Origin: Taeniopygia guttata
Taxonomy: Eukaryota; Chordata; Aves; Passeriformes; Estrildidae
Assembly: GCF_048771995.1 (NCBI RefSeq)
Contig: NC_133024.1
Coordinates: 253,001-317,000, forward strand
Length of the DNA: 64,000 bases
Direction: 5' to 3'
The position numbers were made by a program, and so were the translations under genes. The notes under the pieces were generated by a model. It searched no databases. It had not been told where the DNA came from and saw only the letters and a list, made by a program, of their open reading frames with translations. Shown in pieces: positions 1-35,560 of the stretch; positions within the stretch are counted from its first letter, which is position 1; the number at the start of each line of letters is the position of its first letter.

Positions 1-37
1 CGCCGCTCGCCGCGCGCTCCCGCCCCGGCACCGGCGG

Positions 38-72
38 CTGCAGTACCGCCCTCTGCCCACAAGGCGGCAGCA
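38..72. promoter_or_regulatory. CTCF-like composite site, module 1
   Basis: Read on the minus strand, the segment contains GCAGAGGGCGGTA, a good match to the CTCF core. Read on the plus strand, TGCAGTACC (like the CTCF upstream motif) lies a few bases before CCCACAAGGCGGCAGCA, a weaker core-like sequence. Overlapping opposed cores would be unusual. Motif matching was done by eye against the published consensus; occupancy is unknown. Confidence 0.5.
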
Positions 73-103
73 CTTTTCAAGCGAGCCCGCCACCAGGGAC
101 TCG

Positions 104-115
104 CAAGATGGCGGC
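104..115 (+). promoter_or_regulatory. YY1 consensus
   Basis: CAAGATGGCGGC is an essentially perfect YY1 site and lies 32 bases after the CTCF-like module. YY1 sites of this type are usual in CpG-island promoters just downstream of the start, and with CTCF they mark several looping elements. Confidence 0.6.
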
Positions 116-374
116 CCGTGGGGACCTGGACGGAGAGAGGCGTATTACGCCGATGCCCGTCGGCCCCCGCCAAAAACCCGCACGCTCGCGGTGCTGCTGA
201 CCCCACAGCCCCTGTGCACGGCACCGGAACCGCCGCGGGAAATCCCGTCGGGGGGCGCCGGCGTTGGGGACGATTCAGGCAGTGTAGAAAAAACAGACAC
301 GGGTCCTCGAATGCCGACGTCCTCTTTTTCGCGCCATCTCGAGAAGGTCAAGCGAGTCCGCGACAAGCCACTCC

Positions 375-386
375 CAAGATGGCGGC
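375..386 (+). promoter_or_regulatory. YY1 consensus, module 2
   Basis: Second CAAGATGGCGGC in the cassette, here 13 bases before the second CTCF-like composite, so module order is mirrored relative to module 1. Confidence 0.6.
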
Positions 387-399
387 CGCGGGCGGCGGG

Positions 400-434
400 C
401 TGCAGTACCGCCCTCTGCCCACAGGGCGGCAGCA
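400..434. promoter_or_regulatory. CTCF-like composite site, module 2
   Basis: Same TGCAGTACC plus minus-strand GCAGAGGGCGGTA arrangement as module 1. The plus-strand core-like part reads CCCACAGGGCGGCAGCA, one base different from module 1. It is unchanged in the other four cassettes. Confidence 0.5.
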
Positions 435-632
435 CTGCCGCCCGCCACCGCCGGGGGCCGCCGCTCGCCTCGGGGCCGCGGGCGGGGCCGGCGGCAGAAA
501 AGAACGGGCGCGATGCCCTCCGGAACCTGCCCTGCAGCAAATGCCCCAAAACATCCCGCGCGGAAAAGAACGCCAGCAAAAAAACCCTGCCTCTAACCCA
601 ATAGGAACCAAAAGCAAAAACCTTCTCTTTTA

Positions 633-840
633 AACTGCATTTCAAGCTCTTTTATTTTTATATTTTTCATATTTATATTCACATTCGGATTTATAACGTA
701 TATTGATGTGTAATTGTATTTTTATAATTTCTTACATTTATTCCTATTATATTTTATTATATTTTATATTTTTTCACATATCTTAATATATTGCTTATAT
801 ATTTCTATAGTTAGATTTAGATTTCTAAAAGGTTTATATG
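633..840. repeat. AT tail after cassette A1 (degenerate ~260-base repeats)
   Basis: Composition drops abruptly from very GC-rich to AT-rich. Blocks begin with a CCCTGCCTCTAACC-like header (about 585 and again about 853, nearly 270 apart), then a TTTTAAA element and an ATTTATATTCACATT-like stretch. The same blocks follow every other cassette. No coding or RNA signal seen. Confidence 0.75.
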
Positions 841-3800
841 GCTTCAAATAAACACCCTGCCCCTATCCAAGTAAAAATCTTTTTAAAAGCCCCTTTCTTT
901 TATACTTAAAATAACACCTCCTCCCCATAAAGAGACCCATCAACCATTAGACAAAAAGCCCTAGTGCCAGTCTCATGCTTGCACATCTAACAGGAGACCC
1001 TCCCCATAACCAAACAAAAAATCAAAATAACGTACCAAAAGTAGTCCTTACTAACATTAAAAATACAACTCAACCGTATCCAAAAAACCCTCACCTTTAT
1101 TTCCTCCAAACACCAAATACTCTTCAAATTCTAAACAACAAAAACCATCAGAACATACTTCAAATATAGAAAAGCCTAACCATATAAATATTTGTCAAAG
1201 CCCACAAAAACTATAAAACAATCTAATCAATATCCTGCATTAAAAAAAAAAAACCCACTATACAAATTAGTACCATTTGAAATGTAACACAAATAAAAAT
1301 ATTTTCCTAAGAAACATGTCTCCCAATAAGTAAAACCACCCTGTAAAGATATAAGTAATAATCATAACTCAGCAAGCTAAAATTTCTTCAAAACCAAAAG
1401 ACTTAAAAAACCTTCAATATTTATAAGTAATAACATTTAATATGTTAAGTATTAATGAAATCAAACAAAATTAAATGTCAATACATTTAAACAAATACAT
1501 TTTCTTTTTATCAATTAAAATTAAGTTTATTATTCCTTACTATCAAAATTCATTCAGTCTAAATTTAAATGTTATTTAATATAACTTATGCTAAATTTTA
1601 TTAAAAATCATTTCTCTAAACTATACAGTATATGGTCAATTTTCTTAAAAAAATAAAACACCTCCAATTAAAACAACTAAAAGAAAACACTAACAAACGC
1701 CTATTCAGAAGTAAAAAAAAGTACACTGTATTATATCATCAATTTCATCAAAAATTCTGTACTTCATTACAATCTCTACTCTTATCTTTTAGAAGCGACA
1801 CCAAAAAATAGCAATTACTATTCATATCATGCTGTTTGAAAATTTTACTCTATTTCCTGAATATATAAATATTTTTTAAAAGTTATCCTAACTTCTTCAA
1901 ACACTTACCACTAATATACTAATTATATTATATCAATATATAAGCTTTTATAATAAACAATATTTATTAAATATTGTTATGATATTTACAACCAACTTTC
2001 ATATACTTTATTATCTCTTTATAGAATGATCTAAAAAACACACATAAAATTTCTAATTCCTACTTTTTTATTCTCAACTTATACAGCGCTTAAACCAAGT
2101 TAACTCTCTAACTAATCTCTACACTAACTCTATAATTTAACTTAATGTTATATCATAATTTTAACTATTTTTCAAGATTAAAAAGGTATTCCATTAAAAA
2201 CCTCCTCCAAACTGTTAAACTTATCACTTTCCTCAGTTATTATTACAAAATCACTTGAATACAAAATCCAACTACAACATTAATTTCTTTTTCTAAGTTT
2301 CACACTAAGTAATCACTCTCTCATACATTTCCTGCACCTTCACACTCTCAATATCCAAATCCAAACTCACAATCCTGTCCATAACCACTTTCAAATCTTT
2401 AAAAAGAAGTTTACTATATTCAAAGCATCTCAATTCTAAAAAACTTCTAAAAAAATCCAATTATTAAATAATGTAATTAATCTTTAATCCTAACATTTTT
2501 ACTCTTAAGTACTATTTTTAAAAACATTATATAAAAATATATTAAATAACATTCACCAATTAAAATTTAAACTATAACCTAACCCTAACTCTACCTAAAT
2601 AAAATAATTAACAACAAACCCAAATATTTTCTACGTCAAAAATAAATTCAAATAATTTTAACTTAACAATTTAACTTTAACAATATAACAAATAAACTTA
2701 TTTTTAAAATAAACTTGAAAAATCATTATCCACACATAATTATTTAACTTACCACTAATTTAATATTTATCAACTGTTATAAACTCTAAAAGTATGTACA
2801 ATCTTTTAATACTTACTAATTATATAATTTCACCTATGTTACTAATTATAGATATTACCTAAGTAATTCCTAATTATTATCAATTTCTTCTTTACTACAT
2901 ACATTATTTTACTCTTATATTTCTTCATACTTATAACTGAAAAATTATAACAACTTATATCATTATTTCTCATATCAAAACATAAAGTTTACTTATATCT
3001 CAACAAGTACAAAAACCCAAGTAAATTTCAATAAGAAACATAAAATCAGATCACACAAAAAACACACTCACCGCTCCACAAATAAAACACCAATGTAAAT
3101 ACAAAGACAAATTACACTATGGAAATACAAACGCAGATTACACAAGAATTGCAACTTACACCTAACATCGTGTACTACACCCACCAAAATATATAAACTG
3201 TAAGTTTCTTTATAAATATAAAAAGCAATGTTATAAAAATCTTATTTAGTAACTTACAAATTATGAAATTCTATCAAATATTTTACTTCTACTCTACTTT
3301 ATTTACTTTTAATTATGTCACTTTACCAATTAACCAACCAAAAACAAACATTTAAGTAACTTTAACTAAAGTTTCAAGTTTAAATGCTTTGTATTTATCT
3401 AGCACTACTCAAAAAAATCCATTCTTTACTTACTTACTTAAGATACCAATAAAAACCATTACAAATAGTCCATATAATTAAAAAGCCCTTACATTATTAA
3501 CTCTTAATATTAAAATAGCTACCAATTTAAAACAAAAAAGTCATTTATCCATCAATAGTAATCAAAATATAAAAGTAATTTTAAGCTTTGAAACTTAAAA
3601 TCAAAATGGTAGCATCAGTTTTTATACCACCTATTACTTCAACCACACTAAAACAATTAAATCAATTAAAATATTATCTAAATAAACAATCTAATTCGAC
3701 ATCCCTTACCCTAAATAACTTTTAAACAAATATAAAACTATTAAATACGCAGTTTTACAAAAAACAAAAAAAAAATTATTTTATTAACATACAAATATAA

Positions 3801-4050
3801 AAATTTAATAAAATGTATACATTTATCTAAAACACCAAATCTACTTATTAAAGTGTACAACTTTAAGAAATATCAAAAATAAGAATAACTAATAAAATAT
3901 AACAATAAATAAAATTTAACACCATAATTTAAAAATCTTGTAACAAAAGTATACATTTTAATTATATTATTACAATAATAATACTAATGATAACACCTTC
4001 TGTATGTTAATACATGCAACAAATGCTTAACAAATCCACCAATAAATTTT
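841..4050. other. G-depleted, strand-asymmetric AT-rich tract (copy 1)
   Basis: The + strand nearly lacks G while keeping C: by hand count, 2461-2820 has about 55 C and only 7 G in 360 bases. The bias starts after the second AT-tail block and stops sharply at about 4050, where gene-like DNA begins. No open frame of note and no recognisable element. It carries a 12-base telomere-like fragment near 2578, which I consider chance. The pattern fits C loss on the minus strand; the mechanism is unknown. Confidence 0.8.
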
Positions 4051-4531
4051 TTTTTTCATACAGAGAGAGGGGGAAGACATGGGAATGGGAAAACCAGAAA
4101 CTCCCACAGACACTGAAAGATTTGATCTGCAGCCTCGGGAGAAGCTGGGATTGATGTACCAATACAAGACACGGGCATTACGCAGGAAAAGAATAAAACA
4201 ACATAAAATAACTTCTGTTTCTGTGGCTGTCAGTAGGAGCCTGCCCCGAGTGAGTGAGAGGGGAAACTGTGTGGGCACGATGGGGAAGGGTTTGCAGGGC
4301 AGGGCTGGGGCTGTGTGCGCTACACTGAGAGCTGACAAGTTCCAACAGAAGGCATTGAACAAAAGTACCCTCAGTGCGGCAGAACTGAGCAGAGGTGATG
4401 GGTTCCAAAAGCCAAATAAACCCCGGGGTTAGAAAGTTCTGGCCTGCCTTGGAACAAAGAACTTGTGGCTGCTCCTGAGCCGCAGCAGCTGCTCGCTCTG
4501 CAAACCCTCACGCTCCCAGGCGGGTGCTCAC

Positions 4532-4579
4532 CTGAGCACTGAGTGCTCCCGGCCCAAGAGCAGTCCCATCCCTTCCTTG
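4532..4579 (-). CDS. Candidate exon, gene X (48 nt)
   Basis: On the minus strand a pyrimidine-rich tract ending CTGTTAG precedes 48 nt that stay open in the phase left by the exon at 4848-4890 (reads RKGWDCSWAGSTQCS), followed by GTGAGC. In unit 2 the donor reads GTGAAC, weakening it. Leftmost exon I could link; the region left of it to 4051 shows no clear exon. Confidence 0.35.
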
Positions 4580-4847
4580 CTAACAGCACAGGGAGAAAAA
4601 ATGAAAAAAGATCACTCTGGCCAGCAGGGCTCTCTCTCTCTGCGAGGGTTAGGGGCAGGGCCCTGCAGGGAGCAGGGCGCTCCAGCACCGACAGCCCGAA
4701 TCCAGAGCAGATCCACGGGGGAGCAGCGGGCTGGGGACAGCTGGGGACAGCAATGAGCAGAGCCCATCAGCCTCCCTCTGGGGCTGGGACTGCATTTAGC
4801 ACACAGCTCATACCAGCTGTGGCACTTACACACCTCAGACTCCTTAC

Positions 4848-4890
4848 CACAAACCAGTTCTGATCTAGCTCTCAGGGTGACCTGCACCTC
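4848..4890 (-). CDS. Candidate exon, gene X (43 nt)
   Basis: Minus-strand acceptor (TTTTTGGGGAG) and donor (GTAAGG) bound 43 nt reading EVQVTLRARSELVC, entering in phase 0 and leaving one base, which fits both neighbouring candidates. Short exons need transcript support; the phase agreement across three consecutive candidates is the main argument. Confidence 0.45.
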
Positions 4891-5083
4891 CTCCCCAAAA
4901 ACCACAGGAATTAGAATTTCCTGCTGGTTTTACAAACTTCACGGCAGCTTTGCAAATGCAAATCCCAGCAGGTCCCTGCTTTCCAGAGCACCCATCCTCA
5001 GCCATCTCCACTTCCCTGGAAAACTGCTCCAGCCCCGGGCTGTACCAAGGTGAGCACAAGTCTGGAGAGGTCAGAACCCTCAC

Positions 5084-5113
5084 CTGGACTGCTGCACTCG
5101 GAGTGAGGTCCAG
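5084..5113 (-). CDS. Candidate micro-exon, gene X (30 nt)
   Basis: Acceptor CCATTTGTAG and donor GTGAGGG flank 30 nt reading LDLTPSAAVQ, phase 0 to phase 0, between the phase-compatible exons at 5307-5391 and 4848-4890. Confidence 0.4.
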
Positions 5114-5306
5114 CTACAAATGGAATTCCAGAAACAGCCTCCAAAATGTTCCATAATCACACCTTTAAAATGGCTCCACAGGGCAACAGCTCCAGTGCCA
5201 GAGCAGCACCTGCACGAGTCCTTGTGCCAGCCCTGGCTCCCTGAAAAACACAATAAACCAACATCACACAGGCTTTGTTTGCAGAATTCCTGATCCAAAC
5301 CCTCAC

Positions 5307-5391
5307 CTTTTCTGCCCAGCATTGAGGGAAATCTGACACGGTATTCACAGGTAACCTTTGCTGAGAGCAGCCATCACCCCAGTCCTCCAGC
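5307..5391 (-). CDS. Candidate exon, gene X (85 nt)
   Basis: Strong minus-strand acceptor (CCTTGCCCAG) and donor (AAG then GTGAGGG) enclose 85 nt. One frame is fully open and protein-like (LEDWGDGCSQQRLPVNTV and onward), ending in phase 0. It joins in frame to the micro-exon on its left. Product not recognised. Confidence 0.5.
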
Positions 5392-6314
5392 CTGGGCAAG
5401 GTTTTGCAGTGAATGGACCCAACTTCTAACCCTGAACCTAAATTTCTGTCAGCTTTTGTTGGAAAGAGACTGGAGATTAAAACCTACAACAGATTTAAAA
5501 CAGTGCACAAGGAATAACCGGCCCAGACAAAACCAAACCAGCCCATCTCTGCTCCACCCCATTTCTCCCTGTTCTGGGAGAAATACTGATATAATTTGCA
5601 AATACTCCCCTTCCCTGCTGCACTATCCTTCACTGCACGTCCCTGGAGAGGATTTACTCCATTTTTTGTGCCCAGCAGCACCTCTGCAGCCCAAATCCCA
5701 CTCCTCGCAGACACAGCCTGAGCAGAGCTCAGGCAGTGTTCCCAGCAGCGGATGCAATTCCGAGTTCCCTGGATTGCTCACGGGGCACTCGCAGCAATCT
5801 CCCCTCAGCCCAGACTCTGTGCTCAGAGGGAAGCGCAGCCCGATGGGACACAGCTCTGGCACCACATTCCCCTTGTTCCTGCTGGCCTGGAAAGCCACAG
5901 ATAAACCCAGTCCCTCCGACCCTGCACCCTGAGCGCCGCCCAGCACCCTTCCTCATTTTCCTCCCTCTGCTCCCAAATCCTGCCAGCCCTCCCCTGCAGC
6001 TCCTGCCCCAGCCCCAGCAGAGGCTGGCACCCAGCCCTGCAGCAGCTGGCAGAGCTGGGAATGCACCGAGAGCTCGGCTCCCCGGGCTCCCAGCCCCAGA
6101 CCAGTCCTTGGGTGCCCGAACAATGCCCAGCCTGCCCCCCTGGGCACAGCCAAACACCACAGCTCCGTCAGCCCCAAGGAACTCTGGCATTTGCCTCTTC
6201 CCTGCTGCCCTTTCCCAGCACACAGGGGTACGGCTGGGCTGTCAGAAATGGCATTCCCGAGGCACTTAATCCCAGCAGAGAGGAAAAGGGGAACCCTGCG
6301 TCCCTCTGACTTAC
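5392..6314. other. Intron-like or intergenic DNA, no exon called
   Basis: Non-repetitive, moderately GC-rich sequence with a run of proline- and serine-rich open frames on both strands that I regard as chance. Unit 2 has an extra 72 bases in this stretch (after the base equivalent to 5932). Confidence 0.5.
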
Positions 6315-6362
6315 CCCACAGCGTGGGCAGGACCAGGAGCCCTCCAGTGCACCCCCCTGGTG
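6315..6362 (-). CDS. Candidate exon, gene X (48 nt)
   Basis: Minus-strand acceptor AAGAGGCTTCAG and donor GTAAGTC bound 48 nt with an open frame PGGCTGGLLVLPTLW in a phase compatible with the end of the exon at 7857-8034. It does not join in frame to 5307-5391, so either an exon between them was missed or this one is spurious. Confidence 0.3.
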
Positions 6363-7856
6363 CTGAAGCCTCTTGGCTCTGGCTGCTTAAACACTGAAGC
6401 TTCTGGCAAAGATGGGAGGAGCTTAATGATTTCTCCTGTCCTGAAAGAGAGGAGGAAAAGAGCATTAAGCCCTCTGTGGAAGTCAAAAGATCCCGGCTTT
6501 CACACTTCTGCTGTGATTGCTCACCATGGGGTTTTATCCGTGAGAGGGGACACCAATTCAAATATAAAAGCATTTTTATTCCTAACTATTTCATTAAAAG
6601 GAAGCTCATTTCTCTATTGCATTCTTAGCCTAATTTTAACAGAACCATTTTTATCCATGGCCCCACTTGTCCGTCATTCAATCCTTTACCAAGGGTACTT
6701 TATACAAAGGAAGGGATACCTGGTGCTGTGTCACAAGAAATCCCAAAGAGGAAAGTGTCCAAAACCTCACAGAGAAAGGTTTCAAGGCACTCCAGTGCAC
6801 AGACAGCTGCTCATGCCTTGTCAGGCCACACCAGTTCTGTCACATCCACCTGAGCTGTGCAGGCGAGGCAAAGGCTGCCCTTCCTCCCAGGGAACACTGT
6901 CTGAGACCACAGAGAGCCATCCTGGGTGAAAGGAATGAAATGAAAATGTTTTCTGGCAGAAAATGAGCGTCTGTAATCAGAACCTCTGGACAGATTTAGT
7001 AACACCACTTTCAGATGATAAATACAGGCCATGCCCATCCTTCCAGGCCAGGTGAAACCAGGAAGGAGAACTACAGGAAAAGCAGGAAGACAGAGCCCCT
7101 TATTTGGATATATATAGAATGCCCCTGGTTTGGTGGTTTGCCTTTGCTCCTAAGCTTTGGCTTCACCCCTCTCCAGAGGAGCAGGGAATTCCTCCAGGGT
7201 GAGGGGGAGTCTGGTCCCACTCCAGGATGTGTCCAGTAAAGGAGGGAATTTGTTTAGAGTAAGTGAGCAGTGTTTTTGTTACACACAAAAATCAAACCAA
7301 ACAAACACTGAATTGGACTACACCGAGCTGCAACACAGAGTGTTCACAGCAGGCAGAGGCCAGAGGAGCACACAGCACCCAGAAGTACCATTTCACTTGG
7401 TTCTTCTGCTCTCATGCATTTTAATTCTGCTTCGCTTCACAGCTGCTACTCTGCCAAGGCCATTTCCATTTTCAGAAGCCTGTGTCACCTGTAGCCAAGG
7501 CTTAAACATCACAGGATCTATGTGCACTTCAGTGATCTTACACTAAGTACCTCAGAAACCAAAAGAATAAATCCAAGACTTCAGCTGGGTTAAAAATACC
7601 AGAACAACAAATAAGCAAACAAAAACCCAAACCCGCCTTTCCACTAGTTTTAAAAACAGAAGTCTTTACAACCAGCATAAAATGAATGTAACATTTGGAT
7701 CCAAGCAGAGGTACAATTTAAATGCCAGTATTCTGGAACTGCTAATAACTCTGCAAGTATTTACATGGGTGGATGTGTTACTGGATGGAAAGAATATAAT
7801 GCACGAAAGAGAAGATTAGCTGTGTTTAGGATGGGAAGAAGATGACTAAAAAATAC
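6363..7856. other. Non-repetitive stretch, possible introns or 3' end
   Basis: No exon I can chain. At 7400-7490 the minus strand has an acceptor-like CTACAG followed by a short open frame ending in TGA (reads SENGNGLGRVAAVKRSRIK), a possible alternative last exon, but its phase does not fit its neighbour. A minus-strand AATAAA lies near 6572. Confidence 0.35.
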
Positions 7857-8034
7857 CTATTGTCTGGACGCTCATGCAATCATCTTCTCTTGACCTCAGG
7901 ATGGCTGCCAAAAATAGAGAGTGCTGTGTGACCACCATGTGTAGTTTGGAGAGCTTGACTACGCTCTTAGTGAGGATTCTTTCATGTATAGTAACTGGAT
8001 GGCAACGTTCAGGACCTTCAGAAATGTTTCATCT
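7857..8034 (-). pseudogene. Gene X exon with an internal frameshift (178 nt)
   Basis: Entry is phase-compatible with 8209-8267. The first half reads DETFLKVLNVAIQLLY in the inherited frame and then meets TAG near 7961. The second half is open and equally protein-like in another frame (KLSKLHMVVTQHSLFLAA), as if one base were missing. Leucine-rich helical character suggests HEAT/ARM-type repeats (inference). The lesion is present in both tandem copies, so it predates duplication or homogenisation, making gene X a probable pseudogene here. Confidence 0.55.
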
Positions 8035-8208
8035 CTGTAACGGTACCTTTGGGAGAAGGATCACAGAGAAGTCAGACTGTAACCAAACCCAAGAAAACCC
8101 ACTTGAAGCTACAAGTTGGGTAAGAAATGAGAACTTGGCAAAGAAAATTAACTTGGCAAAGAAAATGAACTTGGTGAAACCAAACCAAATTCAAATGAAA
8201 GCACTTAC

Positions 8209-8267
8209 TTGAGCCCTGTCTTCACAAGGTCACACCAGTCATCTGGGTCCACTTCTTCAACCACACA
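8209..8267 (-). CDS. Gene X exon (59 nt)
   Basis: Minus-strand acceptor (GCTGCACACAG) and strong donor GTAAGTG bound 59 nt reading CVVEEVDPDDWCDLVKTGL in phase 0, leaving two bases. Upstream exon 9324-9501 ends in phase 0 and downstream exon 7857-8034 supplies the one base needed, so three exons chain without conflict. Acidic, Trp/Cys-containing peptide; family not recognised. Confidence 0.65.
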
Positions 8268-9323
8268 CTGTGTGCAGCAAGTAAAAACAGGTGTTGGTTT
8301 ACATTTGGCACATGGAGCTTCTACAGCAATTTTTGTTCAAGGGACACACTAAGAACACGCAAGCCAAACGCTCACGTGGGATGATCTGAGGTTAACAGGG
8401 AAAAAAGCTCTTGGATACAACAATCCTAATTCCTGGCTCAAAAGAAACTTGTTGGTCTGGGAGCAGGGGCTGTATGGAATCAAAAAGCAAGCTGGGCTGT
8501 AGGTTCCAAAAACCCAGCGGCTCAATACTCTTCAAACGCCTCAAGTGCAAAAGGATTCGCAACTTGACAAGTCAAAGCGAGAGCCTGGAGCAGACTGACA
8601 GCTGCACATCCCAACAGTCCTGGGAATGCAGGTGCCAACCTCGCCAGGCTGGAAACACCCTCAGGATGGGATGGACCCTGTGAGGTGGCCCCAGGGCCTG
8701 CAGAGTCAGCCAGGTCCTACAAGGGAGTCTCAGCAAAAGCCATGAGAGCGCAAAGGCATTCACTGCCCAGGGACCTTCAGTGTTGCGTGTCACAGGGATC
8801 TGTGTTCACTGAACTCAAACCAAGGCAACAGTATACAGAGGGAGTGACCAAGTAGTGTTCTTCAAGATCAAAGTCTGATTTCTATTCCTGATCAACCAGA
8901 CTTTTGCCCCAGACTTCAGATGGCATGGCAGATGGGTCTTGGCACAAGTATCTCTATCAGCTTCTTTTAAAAAAGAAGGTGATAACTTAAATTTAAAAAA
9001 TTAAATTAATTAATTTATAATAATTAATTAATTTTAACTTCTTTTTTTTTTTTTTTAATTCCACTGGTAACCTTTGATTTCTTTCTCCTAAATACCTCAA
9101 GCTCACACATTCAAAGGGGATTCGTACCAGAAAGTCATCATCAAGAACACAAAACTGCCTCGTATAAAGGATTCTCAGGACTCGGAAAAAGCTATGAAAA
9201 CTCCATGGAAACCAGAATCCATAAAACAGGAAATCGAGTCCAATCTGTATTTACAAAATTACAACTGCCCAATCACACATATGCATACAGTCCCTCTGTG
9301 GCAAAGCAGATAAGCAGTCTCAC
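8268..9323. other. Intron-like DNA with an AT-rich palindromic patch
   Basis: Between two well-supported exons. It holds a TTAATTAATTT-type palindromic run and a T-tract (about 8988-9058) that differs slightly in length in unit 2. A 73-codon minus-strand frame at 8572-8793 lacks convincing splice sites and is not called. Confidence 0.6.
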
Positions 9324-9501
9324 CAATAATTCCTCTAACCTCAGCAGCACGGACCTCTCCACTTCTTGCTTGCCTTCATCTTTACTGCTGCTGTACATGG
9401 CAACTAACCCCTTTACGCAGGCTGAGAAGAGATGTCTCCTCCAGGAATGCAGCTCCTCTGAGTTTTTGAGCACCGTGGATATGGCATCTGCCACGGCCCA
9501 G
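9324..9501 (-). CDS. Gene X exon (178 nt), helical protein
   Basis: Bounded on the minus strand by TCTCTGCAG and GTGAGAC. The open frame (WAVADAISTVLKNSEEL, later KQEVERSVLLRLEELL) is rich in Leu, Glu and Lys with heptad-like spacing, as in alpha-solenoid repeats. The first base completes a Ser codon begun by exon 9702-9931; the exon ends in phase 0. Identical in effect in unit 2. Best evidence in the window for a real former or present gene, though I cannot name it. Confidence 0.7.
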
Positions 9502-9673
9502 CTGCAGAGAGATAGTTGTTGATTTTCTTATTAACATTTTAACTTGGTTTTGTATATCTTAAAGATGTCTTGCTGCCAAAGTGCAAAGCAACAGATTCTC
9601 GGAGGAGAGGACGCTGTTAATGCTCCCATTCCTATCACACTGATTCCCAGGACAAACTGAGCCCTGGGGGAGG

Positions 9674-9692
9674 CACACACACACACACACAC
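9674..9692. repeat. CA microsatellite
   Basis: Run of CA dinucleotides beside the donor of exon 9702-9931. It is longer in unit 2 (27139-27161), an easy marker for telling the copies apart. Confidence 0.95.
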
Positions 9693-9701
9693 GCTGCCCA
9701 C

Positions 9702-9931
9702 CTCTCCTCATTGCCTGCTCTCTCCGGAGCAGCAGGAAGGCAGTCCATCAGGTTGTGCAGCCCTTTGCTTCCCGGAGGTGGCAACAGCTTGGAAAGAATT
9801 TGCAGTTTCACAGTGGCCTCAGGGTCCTGAATTGCGGCACCGAGCTCCTTCCACAGGGCTTTCCTCAGGACAGGTGTGACAGCCGAGACAGCTGTGGGGA
9901 GAGCAGAAGGCACAGGTTCCTCCACCTGCAG
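9702..9931 (-). CDS. Gene X exon (230 nt)
   Basis: Acceptor TTGTTTAACAG and donor GTGGGC (weaker, next to the CA repeat) enclose 230 nt, open throughout: VEEPVPSALPTAVSAV, then VLRKALWKELGAAIQDPEA and KLQILSKLLPPPG. It leaves two bases that pair correctly with the next exon. The helical VLRKALWKEL...KLQILSKLL pattern again suggests a HEAT/ARM-like solenoid. Upstream exon not found; the CpG island at 10.2-10.65 kb is a candidate promoter. Confidence 0.65.
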
Positions 9932-10640: not shown

Positions 10641-10646
10641 GGGGAG

Positions 10647-25684: not shown

Positions 25685-25743
25685 TTGAGCCCTGTCTTCA
25701 CAAGGTCACACCAGTCATCTGGGTCCACTTCTTCAACCACACA
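25685..25743 (-). CDS. Gene X exon copy 2 (59 nt)
   Basis: Counterpart of 8209-8267, unchanged peptide and splice sites. Confidence 0.65.
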
Positions 25744-26788
25744 CTGTGTGCAGCAAGTAAAAACAGGTGTTGGTTTACATTTGGCACATGGAGCTTCTAC
25801 AGCAATTTTTGTTCAAGGGACACACTAAGAACACGCAAGCCAAACGCTCACGTGGGATGATCTGAGGTTAACAGGGAAAAAAGCTCTTGGATACAACAAT
25901 CCTAATGCCTGGCTCAAAAGAAACTTGTTGGTCTGGGAGCAGGGGCTGTATGGAATCAAAAAGCAAGCTGGGCTGTAGGTTCCAAAAACCCAGCGGCTCA
26001 ATACTCTTCAAACGCCTCAAGTGCAAAAGGATTCTCAACTTGACAAGTCACAGCGAGAGCCTGGAGCAGACTGACAGCTGCACATCCCAACAGTCCTGGG
26101 AATGCAGGTGCCAACCTCGCCAGGCTGGAAACACCCTCAGCATGGGATGGACCCTGTGAGGTGGCCCCAGGGCCTGCAGAGTCAGCCAGGTCCTACAAGG
26201 GAGTCTCAGCAAAAGCCATGAGAGCGCAAAGGCATTCACTGCCCAGGGACCTTCAGTGTTGCGTGTCACGGGGATCCCTGTTCACTGAACTCAAACCAAG
26301 GCAACAGTATACAGAGGGAGTGACCAAGTAGTGTTCTTCAAGATCAAAGTCTGATTTCTATTCCTGATCAACCAGACTTTTGCCCCAGACTTCAGATGGC
26401 ATGGCAGATGGGTCTTGGCACAAGTATCTCTATCAGCTTCTTTTAAAAAAGAAGGTGATAACTTAAATTTTAAAAATTAAATTAATTAATTTATAATAAT
26501 TAATTAATTTTAACTTCTTTTTTTTTTTTTTTTAATTCCACTGGTAACCTTTGATTTCTTTCTCCTAAATACCTCAAGCTCACACATTCAAAGGGGATTC
26601 GTACCAGAAAGTCATCATCAAGAACACAAAACTGCCTCGTATAAAGGATTCTCAGGACTCGGAAAAAGCTATGAAAACTCCATGGAAACCAGAATCCATA
26701 AAACAGGAAATCGAGTCCAATCTGTATTTACAAAATTACAACTGCCCAATCACACATATGCATACACAAAGCAGATAAGCAGTCTCAC

Positions 26789-26966
26789 CAATAATTCCTC
26801 TAACCTCAGCAGCACGGACCTCTCCACTTCTTGCTTGCCTTCATCTTTACTGCTGCTGTACATGGCAACTAACCCCTTTACGCAGGCTGAGAAGAGATGT
26901 CTCCTCCAGGAATGCAGCTCCTCTGAGTTTTTGAGCACCGTGGATATGGCATCTGCCACGGCCCAG
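26789..26966 (-). CDS. Gene X exon copy 2 (178 nt)
   Basis: Counterpart of 9324-9501. A deletion of about 12 bases lies in the adjoining intron, just outside the donor. Confidence 0.7.
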
Positions 26967-27138
26967 CTGCAGAGAGATAGTTGTTGATTTTCTTATTAAC
27001 ATTTTAACTTGGTTTTGTATATCTTAAAGATGTCTTGCTGCCAAAGTGCAAAGCAACAGATTCTCGGAGGAGAGGACGCTGTTAATGCTCCCATTCCTAT
27101 CACACTGATTCCCAGGACAAACTGAGCCCTGGGGGAGA

Positions 27139-27161
27139 CACACACACACACACACACACAC
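27139..27161. repeat. CA microsatellite, longer allele
   Basis: Counterpart of 9674-9692, a few bases longer. Confidence 0.95.
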
Positions 27162-27170
27162 GCTGCCCAC

Positions 27171-27400
27171 CTCTCTTCATTGCCTGCTCTCTCCGGAGCA
27201 GCAGGAAGGCAGTCCATCAGGTTGTGCAGCCCTTTGCTTCCCGGAGGTGGCAACAGCTTGGAAAGAATTTGCAGTTTCACAGTGGCCTCAGGGTCCTGAA
27301 TTGCGGCACCGAGCTCCTTCCACAGGGCTTTCCTCAGGACAGGTGTGACAGCCGAGACAGCTGTGGGGAGAGCAGAAGGCACAGGTTCCTCCACCTGCAG
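27171..27400 (-). CDS. Gene X exon copy 2 (230 nt)
   Basis: Counterpart of 9702-9931; the single change seen, near the donor, is synonymous (GAG to GAA). Confidence 0.65.
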
Positions 27401-27699
27401 CTGTTAAACAACACACTAAACCTAATTTTTTTCTAATCCAGCCCCAGACCACTCAATGTCTAGGAAATGATGCTACAGCAGCTGCTAATCTGTTACAGAG
27501 AAGTGCTACACAGAGGCTCACTTCTTTACCCATCCTCTACTTCCCAGGGTCTGACAAGGCCTTATCACTGCTTGACCTCGTAGGCAGAGCTACAGCCCCA
27601 TTCAGCCTGTTCCTGTCAGAACAACTGACATTTGTTTACAAACCAACAAAATCGTTATCCCTACCTAAATACACCCATAATGCCTCAACCCATTCCCAG

Positions 27700-28110
27700 G
27701 AGGGCGGCAGGAGGGGCGGGCGCAGCCCTGTTCCGACGCCGCTCCACCCCGGCCCGGGAGCGCCGCGACCGCGCCTCCGCCGCCCGCCGGTACCGGCCCC
27801 GCCGGGCCGCCCTCGCGGCTGCCATCCTTCCCCGGCGCTGCCGCGGAGCCGCCTTCACCGCTTCCCTTTTACTCACACACACCGCCCCGCTCGCCGCCGC
27901 CCCGCGCCCCTCCGGGCCCGTCTCGGTGGTAATTGGAGCCGCTCTTGCCACTTCCGCCACAACTCGGTGGTTTTTGGGCCGCTCTGGCCGCTTCCGCCCC
28001 GTCTCGGTGGTTTCTGTGGCCGCTCTTGCCGCTTCCGCCCCGTCTCGGTGGTTTTGGGGCCGCTCTGGCCCCCCCGCGCCGTCTCGGTGGTTTTCGGCCC
28101 GGCGCTGGCC
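27700..28110. promoter_or_regulatory. CpG island and 41-base minisatellite, copy 2
   Basis: Counterpart of 10230-10640, including five 41-base units at 27920-28110. Confidence 0.6.
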
Positions 28111-28116
28111 GGGGAG

Positions 28117-28703
28117 CTGCAGTACCGCGCTCTGCCCACAAGGCGGCAGCACTTTTCAAGCGACCAGAGACTCGCAAGATGGCGGCCCGTGGGGACCTGG
28201 ACGGAGAGAGGCGTATTACGCCGATGCCCGTCGGCCCCCGCCAAAAACCCGCACGCTCGCGGTGCTGCTGACCCCACAGCCCCTGTGCACGGCACCGGAA
28301 CCGCCGCGGAAAATCCCGTCGGGGGGCGCCGGCGTTGGGGACCATTCAGGCAGTGTAGAAAACAGACACGGGTCCTCGAATGCCGACGTCCTCTTTTTCG
28401 CGCCATCTCGAGAAGGTCAAGCGAGTCCGCGACAAGCCACTCCCAAGATGGCGGCCGCGGGCGGCGGGCTGCAGTACCGCCCTCTGCCCACAGGGCGGCA
28501 GCACTGCCGCCCGCCACCGCCGGGGGCCGCCGCTCGCCTCGGGGCCGCGGGCGGGGCCGGCGGCAGAAAAGAACGGGCGCGATGCCCTCCGGAACCTGCC
28601 CTGCAGCAAATGCCCCAAAACATCCCGCGCGGAAAAGAACGCCAGCAAAAAAACCCCTGCCTCTAACCCAATAGGGACCAAAAGCAAAAACCTTCTCTTT
28701 TAA
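28117..28703. promoter_or_regulatory. GC cassette B2: CTCF-like/YY1 modules
   Basis: Counterpart of 10647-11235, with the same damaged minus-strand CTCF core in module 1. Two A are missing from an A-run near 28360. Confidence 0.65.
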
Positions 28704-29329
28704 ACTGCATTTCAAGCTCTTTTATTTTTATATTTTTCATATTTATATTCACATTCGGATTTATAACGTATATTGATGTGTAATTGTATTTTTATAATTT
28801 CTCACATTTATTCCTTTATTACAATTTATATTTTTATGCATTGCTTAATACATTGCTTACATATTTCTATAGATAGATTTCTATTTCTAAAAGGTTTCTA
28901 TTGCTTAAAATAAACCCCTGCCTCTATCCAAGTAAAAATCTTTTAAAAACCCCTTTTCTTTTAAACTGCGTTTAAATTTATCTCTATATTTCGCATTTAT
29001 ATTCAAATTTACGTTTAAAATGTAGATTGATGTATGGTGTTATATGAAAGTATAAAATAGAAATGAAAATAAATATTCAGAAGAGATAGAATAGAAAAAT
29101 CTCTGCATACATTGAATATATATTTCTATATTTAGAATGATATCAAAATAAAAGGTATATTCATTTTTCTTCCATTAAAACCCTGCCTCTAACCAAATAA
29201 AAAGCAAAAAAAAAGCCCCTTCTTTAAACGATACTTGAATATTTATATATTGTTTTCATCATTATAGTCACATTTGCATTTCTACTTTATAGTGACGTAT
29301 TTAGAAATATATATCATATATATATATCT

Positions 29330-29364
<35 letters not shown>

Positions 29365-29440
29365 GTAGCAAGATAGACAAATTATTATTTATATTATATT
29401 TCACACATACTGCTAATACTTATTTTTACTTACCTTTGAA
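28704..29440. repeat. AT tail after cassette B2, with expanded AT microsatellite
   Basis: Counterpart of 11236-11955. A short ATATAT tract in unit 1 (about 11850) has grown into a run at 29307-29360, which accounts for most of the local offset change. Confidence 0.8.
29307..29360. repeat. AT microsatellite
   Basis: Alternating AT with a few C interruptions, about 54 bases, against roughly 12 in unit 1. Confidence 0.9.
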
Positions 29441-30727
29441 TTTTTTATATAGATCCCCAGCAACAATATTTAGAGCATCTGCAAATAAAAGACTGGGAAA
29501 CAGTTATTTTACTCCATCAGAACTTGGGAAAGGCCAGATTTAGATCTCTCCAAAGGGTCAAAGCTACATAACACCAGTTAATACCATTTACTGTAGAAGC
29601 TGAACTGATTTTGGTCTACACATAAGTTTCCTGTTTCTGCCAAACTTCTGCATGAATATTAAAAGTCTGAAGAATGACCACAAGCAGATCACCTAAACCT
29701 ACAAGCTCACTGTTTCCCATTTTTAACCATGCCAGGATCTTCTCTTTTGATCACGTGAGTGGACATTTCCCTCTAAAACCTTCTGACCTAACCAAGAAGT
29801 CTCACCATTACCAAAGTTTCACACCAAAAGCAAAGCACCTCTGTCTGTATCATGCCTGCTGATGGTGCCAGCACACAGTATGGCCCAAGGTGTCTGCCCC
29901 ATGGATTTCCCCGGGGTATTCACACTTTTCCAAAGGTAGCCAGCACCTACGCTGACTCTGAAAACAATTGCCCTTGCAAGAAGGGTCCATGGCAGCTCGG
30001 GGCACTCGTGGTCAGCCACAGGGCCTTGACACACAGAACAGGATAAAGGGACTTGGAGGATTCCCACAGCTGGCCTGCACTGACAGATAGAGCAAGTCCC
30101 TTGGGATTGTGGAGTGAATTCTGCCTCCCAAGGACTGCAGGCTCACATCCACACCCAGGACTATTCAGAAGAGCTGCAGCAAGAGCAGACATCGGGCAGC
30201 TCAGGGTTTCTCTAAGCCCAGTCCTACAAGCCTGTGGGAGCCACAGGTAGCCAGGAAGTTCCTGAGAAATCCAGACCCTCAGCCAGCAGCACAAAGTCCC
30301 AGAGCTGCCAAATCAGAGAGAACTGCCTTCCACCTCTTTTCGCTCACACACTGGTGCTGAAAACTGCCAGACAGGCTAAAAGTCACTCAGGGAGATATAG
30401 AGGGTGTTACTGATAAAGAGTTCTAGGGAAGCTGGATGGCCAGCATCCATCAAACTATCTTCTGGGAATCCCAGCTGTCACATTTCACTCCACTTTTCCC
30501 TTTAACTCAGGCTTTCCCCTTCCAGAATCAATTCTTCCTCCCCACCCTCTCCCACTCCCTGTGCAGATAGCTGGCAACACGCACAAGCTGGATCCACATG
30601 TGGTCACTGAAATTTGGCTGCACAGCTGACCTTTGCTGCTGCCAAAGGGAGGGAATTCCAGGCCAGAGCACCCCTCTCTGCCTGCCCTTCACTTTTCAGA
30701 GCTAATTGGCTTTTCTATCCCTTTCAG
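29441..30727. other. Non-repetitive stretch without a called gene, copy 2
   Basis: Counterpart of 11956-13217; no supported exon. Confidence 0.5.
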
Positions 30728-30935
30728 CACAGCACAGCATGGCCTCGTGGAGCTTGAAAAGCAGCAGTGGTTTTTATCACCATGGTGCAACGGAGAGAAG
30801 ACTTCAGAGCATTTTCTGGGAACGCCACATACAGTTATATTACACTTGCAGAATTGTCTGGCTATTGTGTCTCCTAAGTCACACAGTGGACTACAAACAG
30901 TGCTGTTTCAGTGAAACTCTCTACAACCACTGAAA
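30728..30935 (+). pseudogene. Candidate plus-strand exon copy 2, one frame interrupted
   Basis: Counterpart of 13218-13425. A G-to-T change near 30912 makes TGA in the through-reading frame and only Arg-to-Ser in the ATG-initiated frame. Which frame is real is unresolved. Confidence 0.35.
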
Positions 30936-31296
30936 GTAAGTCACTAACTCTGTTAGAGCAGGCAATGGACTCACATGTTCACAAAAACTGACTACACATG
31001 CTAAAGCCAGACGCTTTGTAGGTAAATGAGAAACACCTCTGGTTTGGGGCCCATCCCTCAGGCAGCAGGTTTTTTTTGCATGGACAGGATGATTACTACT
31101 TGCGGGGCTATATGAAACATTTACCTTTTTATCCAAGTTATGAAAGAATAGCTTTGAAAAGCACAGTAATCCAAGGCCAAAAAGACAGGCAGACAAATGG
31201 ACAGATTTCAGCCACTCGTTTGGTTTTCTTGGCGAGAGCTTTTTGCTCTTCCAAGGGCTGACCTTATGCATTTGCCAGGTCTGGATGATCCACTTG

Positions 31297-31322
31297 AAAA
31301 AAAAAAAAAAAAAAAAAAAAAA
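31297..31322. repeat. A26 homopolymer, copy 2
   Basis: Same length as in unit 1. Confidence 0.9.
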
Positions 31323-31640
31323 GGCTTAAAGGAAATTTCAACAGCAGACTCTTCTGGAGGTGTCTTCTGTCAATCTCCAGCTTCCCACAGGACTTGGTGC
31401 TTGTCTGGGGCTTTTGAGGAACAGCTCATAAATTGCTGCTATTCAGCCACTGGCAGTTGAATCCTGCTTTATTTAGTTTTTGGAATCTTGTAGTGGATCC
31501 TCCCTGCTTCCTTCCTCCAGTCCCTGCTCACATTTAGTTTCAGTTTCCTGGAGCTAAGAGTGTTGACCCCTTTAAAAGCAGCAGCAGCAGCAAGAAAACC
31601 ACAAAGCAAGAAAACCCTGTCCTGACCATAAATGTTGTAC

Positions 31641-31744
31641 CCTCTGCATAGAGAGAAACTCCACCAACTTTTCAGGAAGAAGATGCAACAAACTCTTTTG
31701 CAGCATATCCTGATATGACAGCCTTGCAGCATACAGAATCCAGC
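31641..31744 (-). CDS. Gene Y exon candidate copy 2, open
   Basis: Counterpart of 14131-14234 with Tyr where unit 1 has a stop; reads WILYAARLSYQDMLQKSLL and on to EKLVEFLSMQR. The copies therefore differ in coding potential here. Confidence 0.4.
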
Positions 31745-31945
31745 CTAGCAAGGAAAAAATAAAAAAAAAAAAAAGTGTTGTGTTAAAAAAAATGCACAAG
31801 GAAAAGGTGCTATTTTACATGGATCACAGTAAAGCCACAACAACCTAAGGGTTAATTTCTTCATGAGAATGTTTGAAGTCTAAATTTGAAATCTGTTGTC
31901 AACTGCAGCTGGCTAAAATGGAAAGGGCTACATTTCTTTGCTTAC

Positions 31946-32008
31946 CTTGATGCCTACTGGGATCTGCTTTAGGGCCAATTTTGCATGAAGCTCCTGGGAA
32001 TTACTCAT
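31946..32008 (-). CDS. Gene Y exon candidate copy 2 (63 nt)
   Basis: Counterpart of 14434-14496, unchanged. Confidence 0.4.
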
Positions 32009-32118
32009 CTGTCTTCTTGCATGAGATGAAATATATCTGTTAGAAGGTTGCAAAATGTGTTAGGATGCATTGCAGTGCTGTGCTCTTCCAGGACAGAGGC
32101 ACAAAGTCTGATTCTTAC

Positions 32119-32222
32119 CGTAGCTGGGACTTTGGGGATTCCCAGAGCCATTTTCATGGCATCTAATTTTAGGTCCTTTTCAGACAGATTTGTAATGACA
32201 ATTTGGTTTATAGCCCCTCCCT
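32119..32222 (-). CDS. Gene Y exon candidate copy 2 (104 nt)
   Basis: Counterpart of 14607-14710, unchanged. Confidence 0.5.
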
Positions 32223-32255
32223 CTGTGCCAGGGGCAGGAAAGTCTATCAAAGCAA

Positions 32256-32861
32256 ATGAGGGAATTCTTCATCCTGGAATTCTGCAGGAATTCCCAATCC
32301 CGGAAATCCGGGAATTCCCCATCCTGGAATTCCGGGAGTTCTCAACATTGGAAATCTGGGAATTCTCAATCCTGGAATTCCCCAGCCTGGAATTCCGGGA
32401 ATTCCCGCTGCTCCCTTTGCCTTTGGAGCTGCCCTTCCTGGCAGAATTCCCAGATTTCCTGGCGGAATTCCCGGATTTCCTGGCGGAATCCCCGGATTTC
32501 CCGCCGGGATTCCGGAATTTCCTGTCGGAATTCCCGGAATTCCGGGTTTTTTCCGGGATCTCTCCGTGCCCCAGCAGCTCCCGGAGCCGTTTTCGCTCCA
32601 GGGGGTCCCGGTAATTCCGGCTCCCGTAAAACTGAGCCACGGAAAGTTGGGAACGCACCGGGATTCCCGGAATTCCCGGATTTCCTGACAGAATTCCCGG
32701 ATTTCCTGATGCCATTCCTGCATTTCCAGCCAGGAGTCCCGGATTTCCCGTTGGAATTCCTGAATTTCCAACTGGAATTCCCGAGTTTCTTTCTGGAATT
32801 CCTGAATTTTCCGCCAGAATTCCTGAATTTCCTGTCGGAATTCCCGGATTTCCGGCGGGGA
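32256..32861. repeat. GGAATTCC minisatellite, copy 2
   Basis: Counterpart of 14744-15340 with one extra 9-base unit near 32530 and a few substitutions in the GC interruption. Confidence 0.85.
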
Positions 32862-33060
32862 TCTGCAGCCTCCGGGCCGGCGCCGCTTTCTCCACGATTT
32901 CCTGGGAATTTTGGGAATTTTTTTTGGTATTTTCTGGAGCTGCTCGGAGCCGTTTGGGCGGGGGGGTCCGGAATTCCCAGCGGGAGCTGAAAAAAAAAAA
33001 ACGGGAATGAGGGAGGGGGGAGGGGCGGGAATTCCCAAATCCCAAAATTCCCAAATCCCC

Positions 33061-33610
33061 AATTTAGGGGATTTTTGGGGAATATTTGGGTTTTTTTGGG
33101 ATTTAGGGGATTTGGGTGTTTGGGATTTTGGGGATTTTTGGAGGATTTTGGGATTTAGGGGATTTTGGGGGTTTGGGATTTTGGATTTAGGGGATTTTTG
33201 GGGGATTTTTGGAGCATTTTGGGGTTTGGGGGGATTTAGGGGATTTTGGGGTTTGGGGATTTTTGGAGGATTTTGGCGATTGGGGGATTTTTGGGGGGGA
33301 TATTTGGGGGGTTTTGGGGATTTGGGGGACTTCAGGGGGGATTTTTAGGGGATTTTGGGGGTTTGGGATCTGGGGGATTTTTGGGGTTTGGGATTTTGGA
33401 ATTGAGGGGATTTTTGGGGAATATTTGGGGTTTTTGGGGATGTAGGGGATTTGGGGGTTTGGGATTTGGGGATTTTTGGAGGATTTTGGGGTTTTGGGTT
33501 TTTTTGAGGTCTAGTGTTTTTTGGGGGGGTTTGGGGGGGGGGGTTTGGGAATTTGAAATTTAGGGGATTTTTGGGGGATGTTTGAGGTTTGGGGGGATTT
33601 TTGGGGGATT
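33061..33610. repeat. G-rich minisatellite, contracted copy
   Basis: Counterpart of 15541-16800, reduced from about three 357-base units to roughly one and a half. This is the main length difference between the macrosatellite copies. Confidence 0.9.
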
Positions 33611-33715
33611 TGGGGTTTCAGGCTCACCCGGGCGGGTCCCGGCTCCGTTTCGAGGCGGTTCCGGAGCTGCTGCGGATCCGGGAGAGGCTGAGCAGGGCCG
33701 GGATCCCGGGAACCC

Positions 33716-33822
33716 GAACCCCAAATCCCCAAAATCCCAAACCCCAAATTCCCAAATCCCCAAAACCCCCCAAACTCCCAAAACACCAAATTTCCAAAAA
33801 TCCCAAACCCCCAAAAAACAGA
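33716..33822. repeat. C-rich inverted arm, copy 2
   Basis: Counterpart of 16917-17034, about one short unit shorter. Confidence 0.8.
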
Positions 33823-33837
33823 TGGCAAGGTTCTCCC

Positions 33838-34193
33838 CCCCCACGCAGTGCGCATGCGCGGTTCCCTTTGCAGTACGCCCGCTTTGCGCATGCGCACTGG
33901 AATTTCCGTACAGCATAATGGCCGCCTTCTTACAGCAGAGTTCCATTTTCCGTACAGTGTCATGGCCGCCCTGCGCATGCGCACTGGGTTTTCCGTACAG
34001 CATCATGGCCGCCTTCCTACAGCACAGTTCCATTTTCCGTACAGTGTCATGGCCGCTAAGCGCATGCGCACTGGAAATTCCTCGTCTGCGCGCAAAGCAC
34101 CAAGCCTGTTTCCTGACCAGAGCTTGTTTTTGAGGCTCGGGCCGCCCGAGCCGCCGCCGCCCCCCGCCCTGCGCTCACAGACACCGCCCCGCG
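33838..34193. promoter_or_regulatory. NRF1/YY1-type CpG promoter, copy 2
   Basis: Counterpart of 17040-17403. The NRF1 palindromes are kept at 33849-33860, 33885-33896, 33972-33983 and 34060-34070, despite substitutions between them. Confidence 0.65.
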
Positions 34194-35560
34194 CGCCGCT
34201 CGCCGCGCGCTCCCGCCCCGGCACCGGCGGCTGCAGTACCGCCCTCTGCCCACAATGGGGGCAGCACTTTTCAAGCGAGCCCGCCACCAGGGACTCGCAA
34301 GATGGCGGCCCGTGGGGACCTGGACGGAGAGAGGCGTATTACGCCGATGCCCGTCGGCCCCCGCCAAAAACCCGCACGCTCGCGGTGCTGCTGACCCCAC
34401 AGCCCCTGTGCACGGCACCGGAACCGCCGCGGAAAATCCCGTCGGGGGGCGCCGGCGTTGGGGACAATTCAGGCAGTGTAGAAAAAACAGACACGGGTCC
34501 TCGAATGCCGACGTCCTCTTTTTCGCGCCATCTCGAGAAGGTCAAGCGAGTCCGCGACAAGCCACTCCCAAGATGGCGGCCGCGGGCGGCGGGCTGCAGT
34601 ACCGCCCTCTGCCCACAGGGCGGCAGCACTGCCGCCCGCCACCGCCGGGGGCCGCCGCTCGCCTCGGGGCCGCGGGCGGGGCCGGCGGCAGAAAAGAACG
34701 GGCGCGATGCCCTCCGGAACCTGCCCTGCAGCAAATGCCCCAAAACATCCCGCGCGGAAAAGAACGCCAGCAAAAAACCCCTGCCTCTAAACCAACAGGA
34801 ACCAAAAGCAAAAACCTTCTCTTTTAAACTGCATTTCAAGCTCTTTTATTTTTATATTTTTCATATTTATATTCACATTCGGATTTATAACGTATATTGA
34901 TGTGTAATTGTATTTTTATAATTTCTTACATTTATTCCTATTATATTTTATTATATTTTATATTTTTACACATATCTTAACATATTGCTTGTATATTTCT
35001 ATAGTTAGATTTAGATTTCTAAAAGGTTTATAGGGCTTAAAATAAACCCCTGCCTCTATGCAAGTAAAAATTTTTTAAAAACCCCTTTCTTTAAACTCCG
35101 TCTAAATTTATCATTATTTTTCGCATTTATGTTCAAATGTACATTTTTATTGTAGATTGATGTATGGTGTTATTTATAGTCTATCTCTTCCTCATACTTA
35201 TTTTTATTTACATTTTATATTTGTATATTTATCTGTATACATTGATTATCTATTTCCATATTTAGAAAGATACCAAAACAAAATGTATATTCATCATTTT
35301 TCCATTAAAACCCTGCCTCTAATCAAAAAAAAGCAAAAAAATCCCTTTCTTTAAACGCTACTTGAATATTCATATATTTTTTCATCATTATAGTCACATG
35401 CACATTTCTCCTTTATATTGATGTATCTATAAATATATATTATATAGATAATAAGGTAGCAAGATAGATAAATTTTCATTTTAATTCTATTGTACATACC
35501 ACTAATACTTATAGTTACTTACCTTTGAGATTTTATATAGCTCTTAACGTATTTAGGATA
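34194..35560. repeat. Truncated third macrosatellite copy
   Basis: The cassette-A start recurs at 34194 and stays collinear with units 1 and 2 through the cassette (to about 34827) and the first AT-tail block. From about 35035 the tail follows the cassette-B type instead, so this copy is mosaic, and it then fades into diverged AT-rich DNA. The first CTCF-like site is altered here (around 34254). Confidence 0.9.
34231..34827. promoter_or_regulatory. GC cassette A3, first CTCF-like site altered
   Basis: Third copy of cassette A. In module 1 CACAAGGCGGCAG has become CACAATGGGGGCAG (around 34252-34265), which disrupts the plus-strand core, while the minus-strand core, module 2 and both YY1 sites stay intact. 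It borders the end of the macrosatellite array. Confidence 0.65.

Follow-up and report, generated by a model that had tools for sequence, protein, structure and literature searches.

The window analysed here is a 64,000-nucleotide stretch of the zebra finch (Taeniopygia guttata) genome, positions 253,001–317,000 of contig NC_133024.1 (C1 below). It holds the inner end of a macrosatellite array that spans ~99.2 to 288.5 kb of C1, about 189 kb with one interruption, and so reaches beyond the window; the part in C1:200,001–253,000 is known through probe matches only. Self-BLAST aligns window positions 1–5932 with 17404–23336 (99.8% identity), 5929–11850 with 23405–29319 (99.4%) and 11830–16090 with 29340–33618 (98.1%), which confirms the two full copies and the beginning of a third one given in a preliminary description of this DNA. 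There, the third copy was said to end at 34830; the break is actually at about 35,539. The ~17 kb tandem repeat proposed is real, but module spacings on the left end of C1, which are 6.1–7.5 kb or 10.6–10.7 kb plus a single 19.3-kb step, show that the 17.4-kb period is a dimer: an S segment (~7 kb) and an L segment (~10.7 kb), joined at CpG modules. The features of the window are as follows.

1..17403, + strand: macrosatellite copy 1 (S+L dimer), from self-BLAST; the phase is arbitrary and begins within CpG island 1
904..11945, − strand: L segment with module, colinear with interstitial C7:12,696,783–12,708,213
8209..8267, − strand: another exon-like stretch, having both acceptor and donor, read by eye
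9702..9891, − strand: exon-like ORF with splice sites, encoding a 63-aa peptide
10230..11230, no strand: CpG island 2, 40-bp repeats and CTCF/YY1 module, located 5' of the L segment's exon-like ORFs
10648..10681, + strand: predicted two-part CTCF cassette of island 2, upstream TGCAGTACC, 6-bp gap, core of 14.2 bits
10706..10716, + strand: YY1 consensus AAGATGGCGGC; further ones start at 10977, 17508 and 17779
11002..11035, + strand: second CTCF-like cassette of island 2, weaker core (9.5 bits)
12000..14700, no strand: S segment body (probe 12000–13700)
15540..16820, + strand: G-rich minisatellite, variable in length among copies, whose G-quadruplex motifs are on the + strand
16831..17950, no strand: CpG island 1, NRF1 block and CTCF/YY1 module
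17060..17279, no strand: NRF1 block of 87-bp tandem repeats containing four GCGCATGCGC
17404..34193, + strand: macrosatellite copy 2, 98–99.8% identity in the main aligned pieces; G-rich minisatellite shorter
17442..17475, + strand: predicted two-part CTCF cassette in island 1, 14.2 bits; many other family copies lack it or have it in broken form
17804..17837, + strand: second CTCF-like cassette of island 1, weak core (9.5 bits)
34194..35539, + strand: third copy, broken off, which is the inner end of the C1 array; first CTCF cassette degenerate

Rfam and tRNA scans of the window gave no match, and ongoing strand-biased deamination was rejected as the origin of a G-poor block.

Two CpG islands are present in each 17.4-kb unit. 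Both islands hold two CTCF-like/YY1 cassettes, which makes four per unit, and the NRF1 block is confined to one of them. The earlier account of two cassettes and one NRF1-rich CpG promoter per unit is correct as to the single NRF1 island, but not as to the number of cassettes. The island repeats have periods of 87/44 and 40/81 bp, and a 31-mer of the NRF1 block has 60+63 matches genome-wide. When unit 1–17403 was compared with 200 dinucleotide shuffles, GCGCATGCGC and AAGATGGCGGC were each found four times versus 0.005 expected, so that the YY1 and NRF1 motifs first reported, the former as exact sites and the latter as a block, lie far above shuffle expectation. In the same comparison, CTCF cores of at least 14 bits numbered two versus 0.22 expected, with up to three in one shuffle, and a CTCF call from the 19-bp core alone was set aside as weak. 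The two-part site, which combines the 14.2-bit core with the upstream motif at 6 bp, occurred in 0 of 3,000 shuffled islands.

The repeat is widespread at chromosome ends. Searching with a 68-mer of the module gives 105 matches, 100 of which are listed near 15 ends of 11 contigs, two of these being of Z and W size, and all 100 listed matches share inward polarity relative to the chromosome end. The S probe (12000–13700) has at least 40 matches, from 40 candidates scored out of 61. Twelve copies of the module, including seven top-scoring matches on six other contigs, differ by 0–6 substitutions in ~601 bp, and further short pieces of the repeat are 97–99% identical. This very high identity, together with N blocks near some chromosome ends, is what duplication during assembly would produce; such an artefact is nevertheless highly improbable, as the copies vary in substitutions, indels and S/L order and are present on many contigs.

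The strong two-part CTCF site is predicted in four of the five window modules and in 10 of 15 modules in the examined C1 sequence. It is missing from some copies. The strong cassette is listed beside 28 of the 65 listed modules on C1–C5 and at one of the 19 modules on the right end of C4. At 18 further places, fetched because no such site was listed there, it was missing from all 18, an extra base breaking it at 11, and the idea that every family member has the strong site was rejected. The L-type modules on the left end of C1 keep it in 8/8 cases, versus 6/13 for the other modules there. The motif columns differ from the module copy on C7 at 2 of 68 positions versus 48 of 447 elsewhere in the module (p=0.046, with the columns selected post hoc), which hints weakly that the predicted sites are under constraint.

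The position and polarity of the sites bear on a boundary function. Here, inward-facing CTCF/YY1 promoter arrays would halt cohesin arriving from the arm and insulate terminal heterochromatin, by analogy with the tandem CTCF sites of DXZ4. On C1 the order is telomere and 191-bp satellite, then the array, then the arm; all 35 CTCF cassettes listed on its left end are on the + strand and point inward, as do the listed module matches elsewhere. The rarity of the two-part site in shuffled islands agrees with this, and the motif spacing is a known one, with the site reported in use in chicken (PMC9004084, PMC5504073). Yet a single polarity is also predicted by plain exchange, one cassette close to the right-hand end of C4 faces outward, and multimerised D4Z4 is described as losing CTCF binding (PMC2639723). 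Because the strong CTCF site is not constant, the boundary function was downgraded to fairly unlikely. The same result lowered a broader proposal to quite unlikely, namely that inward CTCF/YY1 promoter arrays at many ends, both sex-chromosome-size contigs included, serve as hubs or as barriers that stop cohesin in one direction. These would form a multi-chromosome, largely autosomal counterpart of DXZ4 spread by subtelomere exchange, with strong sites at the L-rich ends (C1 left, C2 right) and weaker ones elsewhere.

The L segment has a likely relative, a gene-like locus, inside C7. Identity between the two is 95–96% over most of their length and 86–89% in the module and at the far end. As the module differs more from the C7 copy than the adjoining DNA does, the window unit and the C7 copy may not be simple orthologues; we infer that the C7 locus could be the source of the L segment and modules. 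The L segment might instead be retained for protein-coding gene copies, as in a D4Z4-like gene array. None of the 53 genomic matches to the 63-aa exon peptide contains a stop, copies of it are numerous on the Z- and W-size contigs, and the three changes between the window unit and the C7 copy fall at third positions only. Against this, exon-like pieces are the only gene content recognised in the segment, a Pfam search with it found no match and the PDB gave nothing useful for naming it. In addition, the arrays on the right ends of C4 and C7 are nearly S-only: on the former, the exon peptide has one match (all 54 candidates scored) versus at least 17 for the S probe. Retention for the gene is unlikely.

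CpG decay was measured between the window unit and the C7 copy with GpC sites as the control, a test that rests on few changes. Transitions at CpG versus GpC sites were 5/202 versus 5/239 in the module and 22/323 versus 21/1566 in the gene part; that is, decay is not elevated in the module and is 5-fold in the adjoining DNA. Taken across the entire island, the ratio comes to 1.9 (14/438 versus 8/481, p=0.14). These values fit a module that would be an unmethylated island in the germline.

On balance, we slightly favour a subtelomeric macrosatellite that is homogenised between chromosome ends and whose CpG islands derive from the gene-like locus on C7. S and L segments follow one another head to tail, and every junction holds a CpG module. 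From this anatomy, unequal exchange between modules would yield arrays that are S-rich or S+L, and exchange from one chromosome end to another would keep the copies alike and in one polarity. The L segment is a copy of the gene-like locus, whose promoter seems to have given rise to the modules. These carry YY1 sites, the NRF1 block in S segments and a CTCF site whose strong form is found mainly in L-type modules. As germline-unmethylated islands they would probably start germline transcripts, and some would bind CTCF. The repeat is explicable without a chromosome-wide architectural job, and a role in folding or insulating chromosome ends is possible.

Among known systems, DXZ4 was the parallel initially drawn. 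Its tandem units have a promoter element that pairs CTCF and YY1 sites, with CTCF in one polarity (PMC6985041), and the cassettes listed on the left end of C1 share the common polarity. At the level of sequence prediction, the tandem units of the window resemble it in having CpG islands that pair CTCF and YY1 sites. The likeness fails in that the zebra finch repeat lies on many chromosomes, has an NRF1 block and includes many copies that have no strong CTCF site; its presence near 15 ends of 11 contigs rules out a DXZ4-like single locus. In its setting the repeat is more like human D4Z4 and subtelomeric TERRA promoters. D4Z4 is likewise a subtelomeric tandem macrosatellite linked to CTCF and YY1 (PMC2639723) and carries the gene DUX4 (PMC5849414). 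Its unit is 3.3 kb versus 7/17.4 kb here, where 15 chromosome ends are involved, and the ORFs and frames scanned, part of the frames of the unit, contain no homeobox, the domain that DUX4 has in double form.

Human subtelomeric TERRA promoters (61-29-37 repeats) are CpG islands in which repeats with NRF1 sites lie near a CTCF site (PMC6600276), and by sequence the window has the same combination, with its own repeat periods. This human parallel raises the idea that the modules are promoters of subtelomeric noncoding RNA. Less than 0.4 kb separates the NRF1 repeats from a CTCF cassette, and transcription along the exon direction would head toward the telomere. However, the telomere tract on the left end of C1 is more than 90 kb from the nearest unit sequence, with 66 kb of 191-bp satellite between them, and the outermost listed modules are 21–701 kb from contig ends, which makes TERRA-like promoters very unlikely. 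Among songbird satellites, the 14-kb crowSat1 of the hooded crow (PMC6115840) also has a very long unit, a likeness by description only. No title or abstract found describes a unit such as this one; coverage of subscription papers was incomplete and absence is unproven.

If the arrays do not bind CTCF, they would still be a shared 7/17-kb subtelomeric repeat with exchange between ends and a likely relative inside C7. If they do, tandem CTCF/YY1 promoters would extend beyond the mammalian X macrosatellites from which they are known to the autosomal ends of a non-mammal, and ends with strong versus broken sites would provide natural test cases within one genome.

The window covers C1:253,001–317,000. 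The macrosatellite lies near the left end of contig C1 (115.9 Mb; the assembly comprises 1.14 Gb in 41 contigs), where its unit sequence extends over C1:99,236–288,539, broken at about 110–128 kb; the stretch C1:200,001–253,000 was placed through probe matches alone. Self-comparison of the window bore out the preliminary description of two copies followed by the beginning of a third. The ~17-kb repeat proposed there also stands, but not as a single basic unit. The 17.4-kb period is a dimer of an S segment (~7 kb) and an L segment (~10.7 kb), as follows from the spacings of the CpG modules at the S/L junctions and from probe counts. The unit's two modules (unit 31–906 and 10,639–11,499) are about 95% identical. 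Module spacings at C1-left are 6.1–7.5 or 10.6–10.7 kb, a single 19.3-kb step spanning the interruption. C4-right carries 19 modules among the matches listed, with a single 10.7-kb spacing among others of 6.4–7.5 kb; C7-right likewise has one of 10.7 kb, the others being 6.8–8.2 kb, and spacings at C2-right are mixed. The L-segment exon peptide matches C4-right once (54 of 54 candidates scored), versus at least 17 matches for the S probe (40 of 61 scored). S-only arrays would arise through recombination between modules.

C1 begins with 5 kb of N followed by CCCTAA repeats, and N blocks also adjoin the telomere repeats of C2-right. A 191-bp satellite (C1:23,422–89,864, about 348 copies) stands between telomere and array, and was present in one of eight slices sampled 42–61 kb from other contig ends (C4-right). 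Directly inward of the macrosatellite is a 162-bp satellite with higher-order repeats (window 38500–61100). Within the interruption, C1:110,850–114,208 is a 97% copy of the inner-end flank C1:288,252–291,582. A G-poor block (window about 950–4050 and in copy 2) has 4.8% G and 18.3% C, with TpC at 0.57 of expected on the C-poor strand; no sign of ongoing G-to-A bias was found between copies. The contigs examined are presumably sized like songbird chromosomes, C40 (82.2 Mb) and C41 (33.8 Mb) like Z and W; eight of 11 sizes are multiples of 2,500.

The macrosatellite is spread over many chromosome ends with a fixed polarity. A 68-mer that covers the second cassette and its YY1 site matches the genome 50 times forward and 55 times in reverse (≤3 mismatches; control 0 and 0). 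Among 100 matches listed, the 48 on the + strand all lie no farther than 2.6 Mb from a left end and the 52 on the − strand no farther than 0.63 Mb from a right end, the outermost modules being 21–701 kb from contig ends. A CTCF cassette 35-mer has 100 + 102 matches genome-wide (≤2 mismatches; control 0); 100 listed include eight interstitial ones of mixed orientation (C2, 59.7–62.2 Mb) and one outward-pointing near the C4 right end (114,993,814). An NRF1-block 31-mer has 60 + 63, of which 100 listed fall mostly at module-bearing ends, and also on C14 and at C4:1.21 Mb. Twelve module copies differ by 0–6 substitutions; seven of them, on other contigs, ranked as top matches (40 of 160 candidates scored). 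Pieces at C22-right and C3-right show about 97% identity to the unit. Sequence has probably been exchanged between chromosome ends. On C40 and C41 (0.6–2.6 Mb), L-segment exon copies form mostly +/− pairs about 27 kb apart, recurring along both contigs.

CTCF-like, YY1 and NRF1 motifs had been noted in the units. Exact NRF1 and YY1 sites are indeed far above expectation (200 dinucleotide shuffles), but a strong CTCF site is not in every copy, being found in 10 of 15 modules of C1 sequence examined (the remaining five include a truncated one). All remain predicted sites. The strong core scores 14.2 bits, with a per-position p of 5.5e-6 under uniform base composition and of 2.8e-5 at 72% GC; the core of the second cassette scores 9.5 bits. 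Each is preceded at 6 bp by TGCAGTACC, which we take, by its consensus, to be an upstream CTCF motif. The combination occurred in 0 of 3,000 shuffled islands, and none was found in C1:5–99 kb or window 34.9–64 kb. Passages of PMC9004084 describe the two motifs at 5- or 6-bp spacing, of PMC5504073 their use in chicken, and of PMC12885311 a link to insulators. Cores at C1-left read forward, so under the orientation rule in passages of PMC12885311 and PMC6985041 it is DNA from the chromosome interior that would be reeled into loops.

Modules with a strong CTCF cassette, among the matches listed
C1-left: 14 of 21
C1-right: 0 of 2
C2-left: 1 of 1
C2-right: 8 of 12
C3: 2 of 3
C4-left: 0 of 2
C4-right: 1 of 19
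C5-right: 2 of 5

Arrays at chromosome ends could be read as a CTCF boundary. This reading is weakened by the loss of predicted CTCF sites in many copies: strong cassettes stand beside just 28 of 65 modules listed on C1–C5 (exact matches, in a listing that reaches C5:73.656 Mb, short of the last C5 module), and at 0 of 18 inspected places on C1, C3, C4, C5, C7, C9, C10, C22, C40 and C41, all chosen because none was listed there. The core is broken by an extra base at 11 of these, and seven have other sequence at the site. Ten of the 11 extra-base cassettes are identical and one differs by one base; this near-identity on several ends indicates that the broken variant is itself common to chromosome ends. 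It was seen in modules of C4-right, C7-right, C5-right, C10-right, C1-right and C4-left. At C1-left the strong site is kept in 8/8 L-type modules versus 6/13 others (listed matches), and thus goes with the gene-side module, where CTCF would be predicted to bind.

Unit 904–11945 is colinear with an interstitial gene-like locus, C7:12,696,783–12,708,213, which has three 15.6-bit CTCF cores and YY1 sites; no NRF1 site was found in the region scanned. The 63-aa L-segment exon has 53 genomic matches, none with stop codons (54 of 54 candidates scored), and a Pfam search returned no family. Transitions at CpG sites that separate the unit from the C7 copy were counted with GpC sites as control. They do not exceed the control in the module (5/202 vs 5/239, p=1) or significantly in the whole island (14/438 vs 8/481, p=0.14), whereas they do in the gene part (22/323 vs 21/1566, p=2e-7). 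On these small counts, the module is consistent with an island that escapes methylation in the germline; modules would then be candidates for germline transcription. Motif columns differ at 2/68 vs 48/447 other module columns (p=0.046, columns chosen afterwards).

Unlike DXZ4, a single locus, the macrosatellite is found near many chromosome ends, and unlike D4Z4 it has no homeobox gene within the sequence scanned; it may still work like one or the other.
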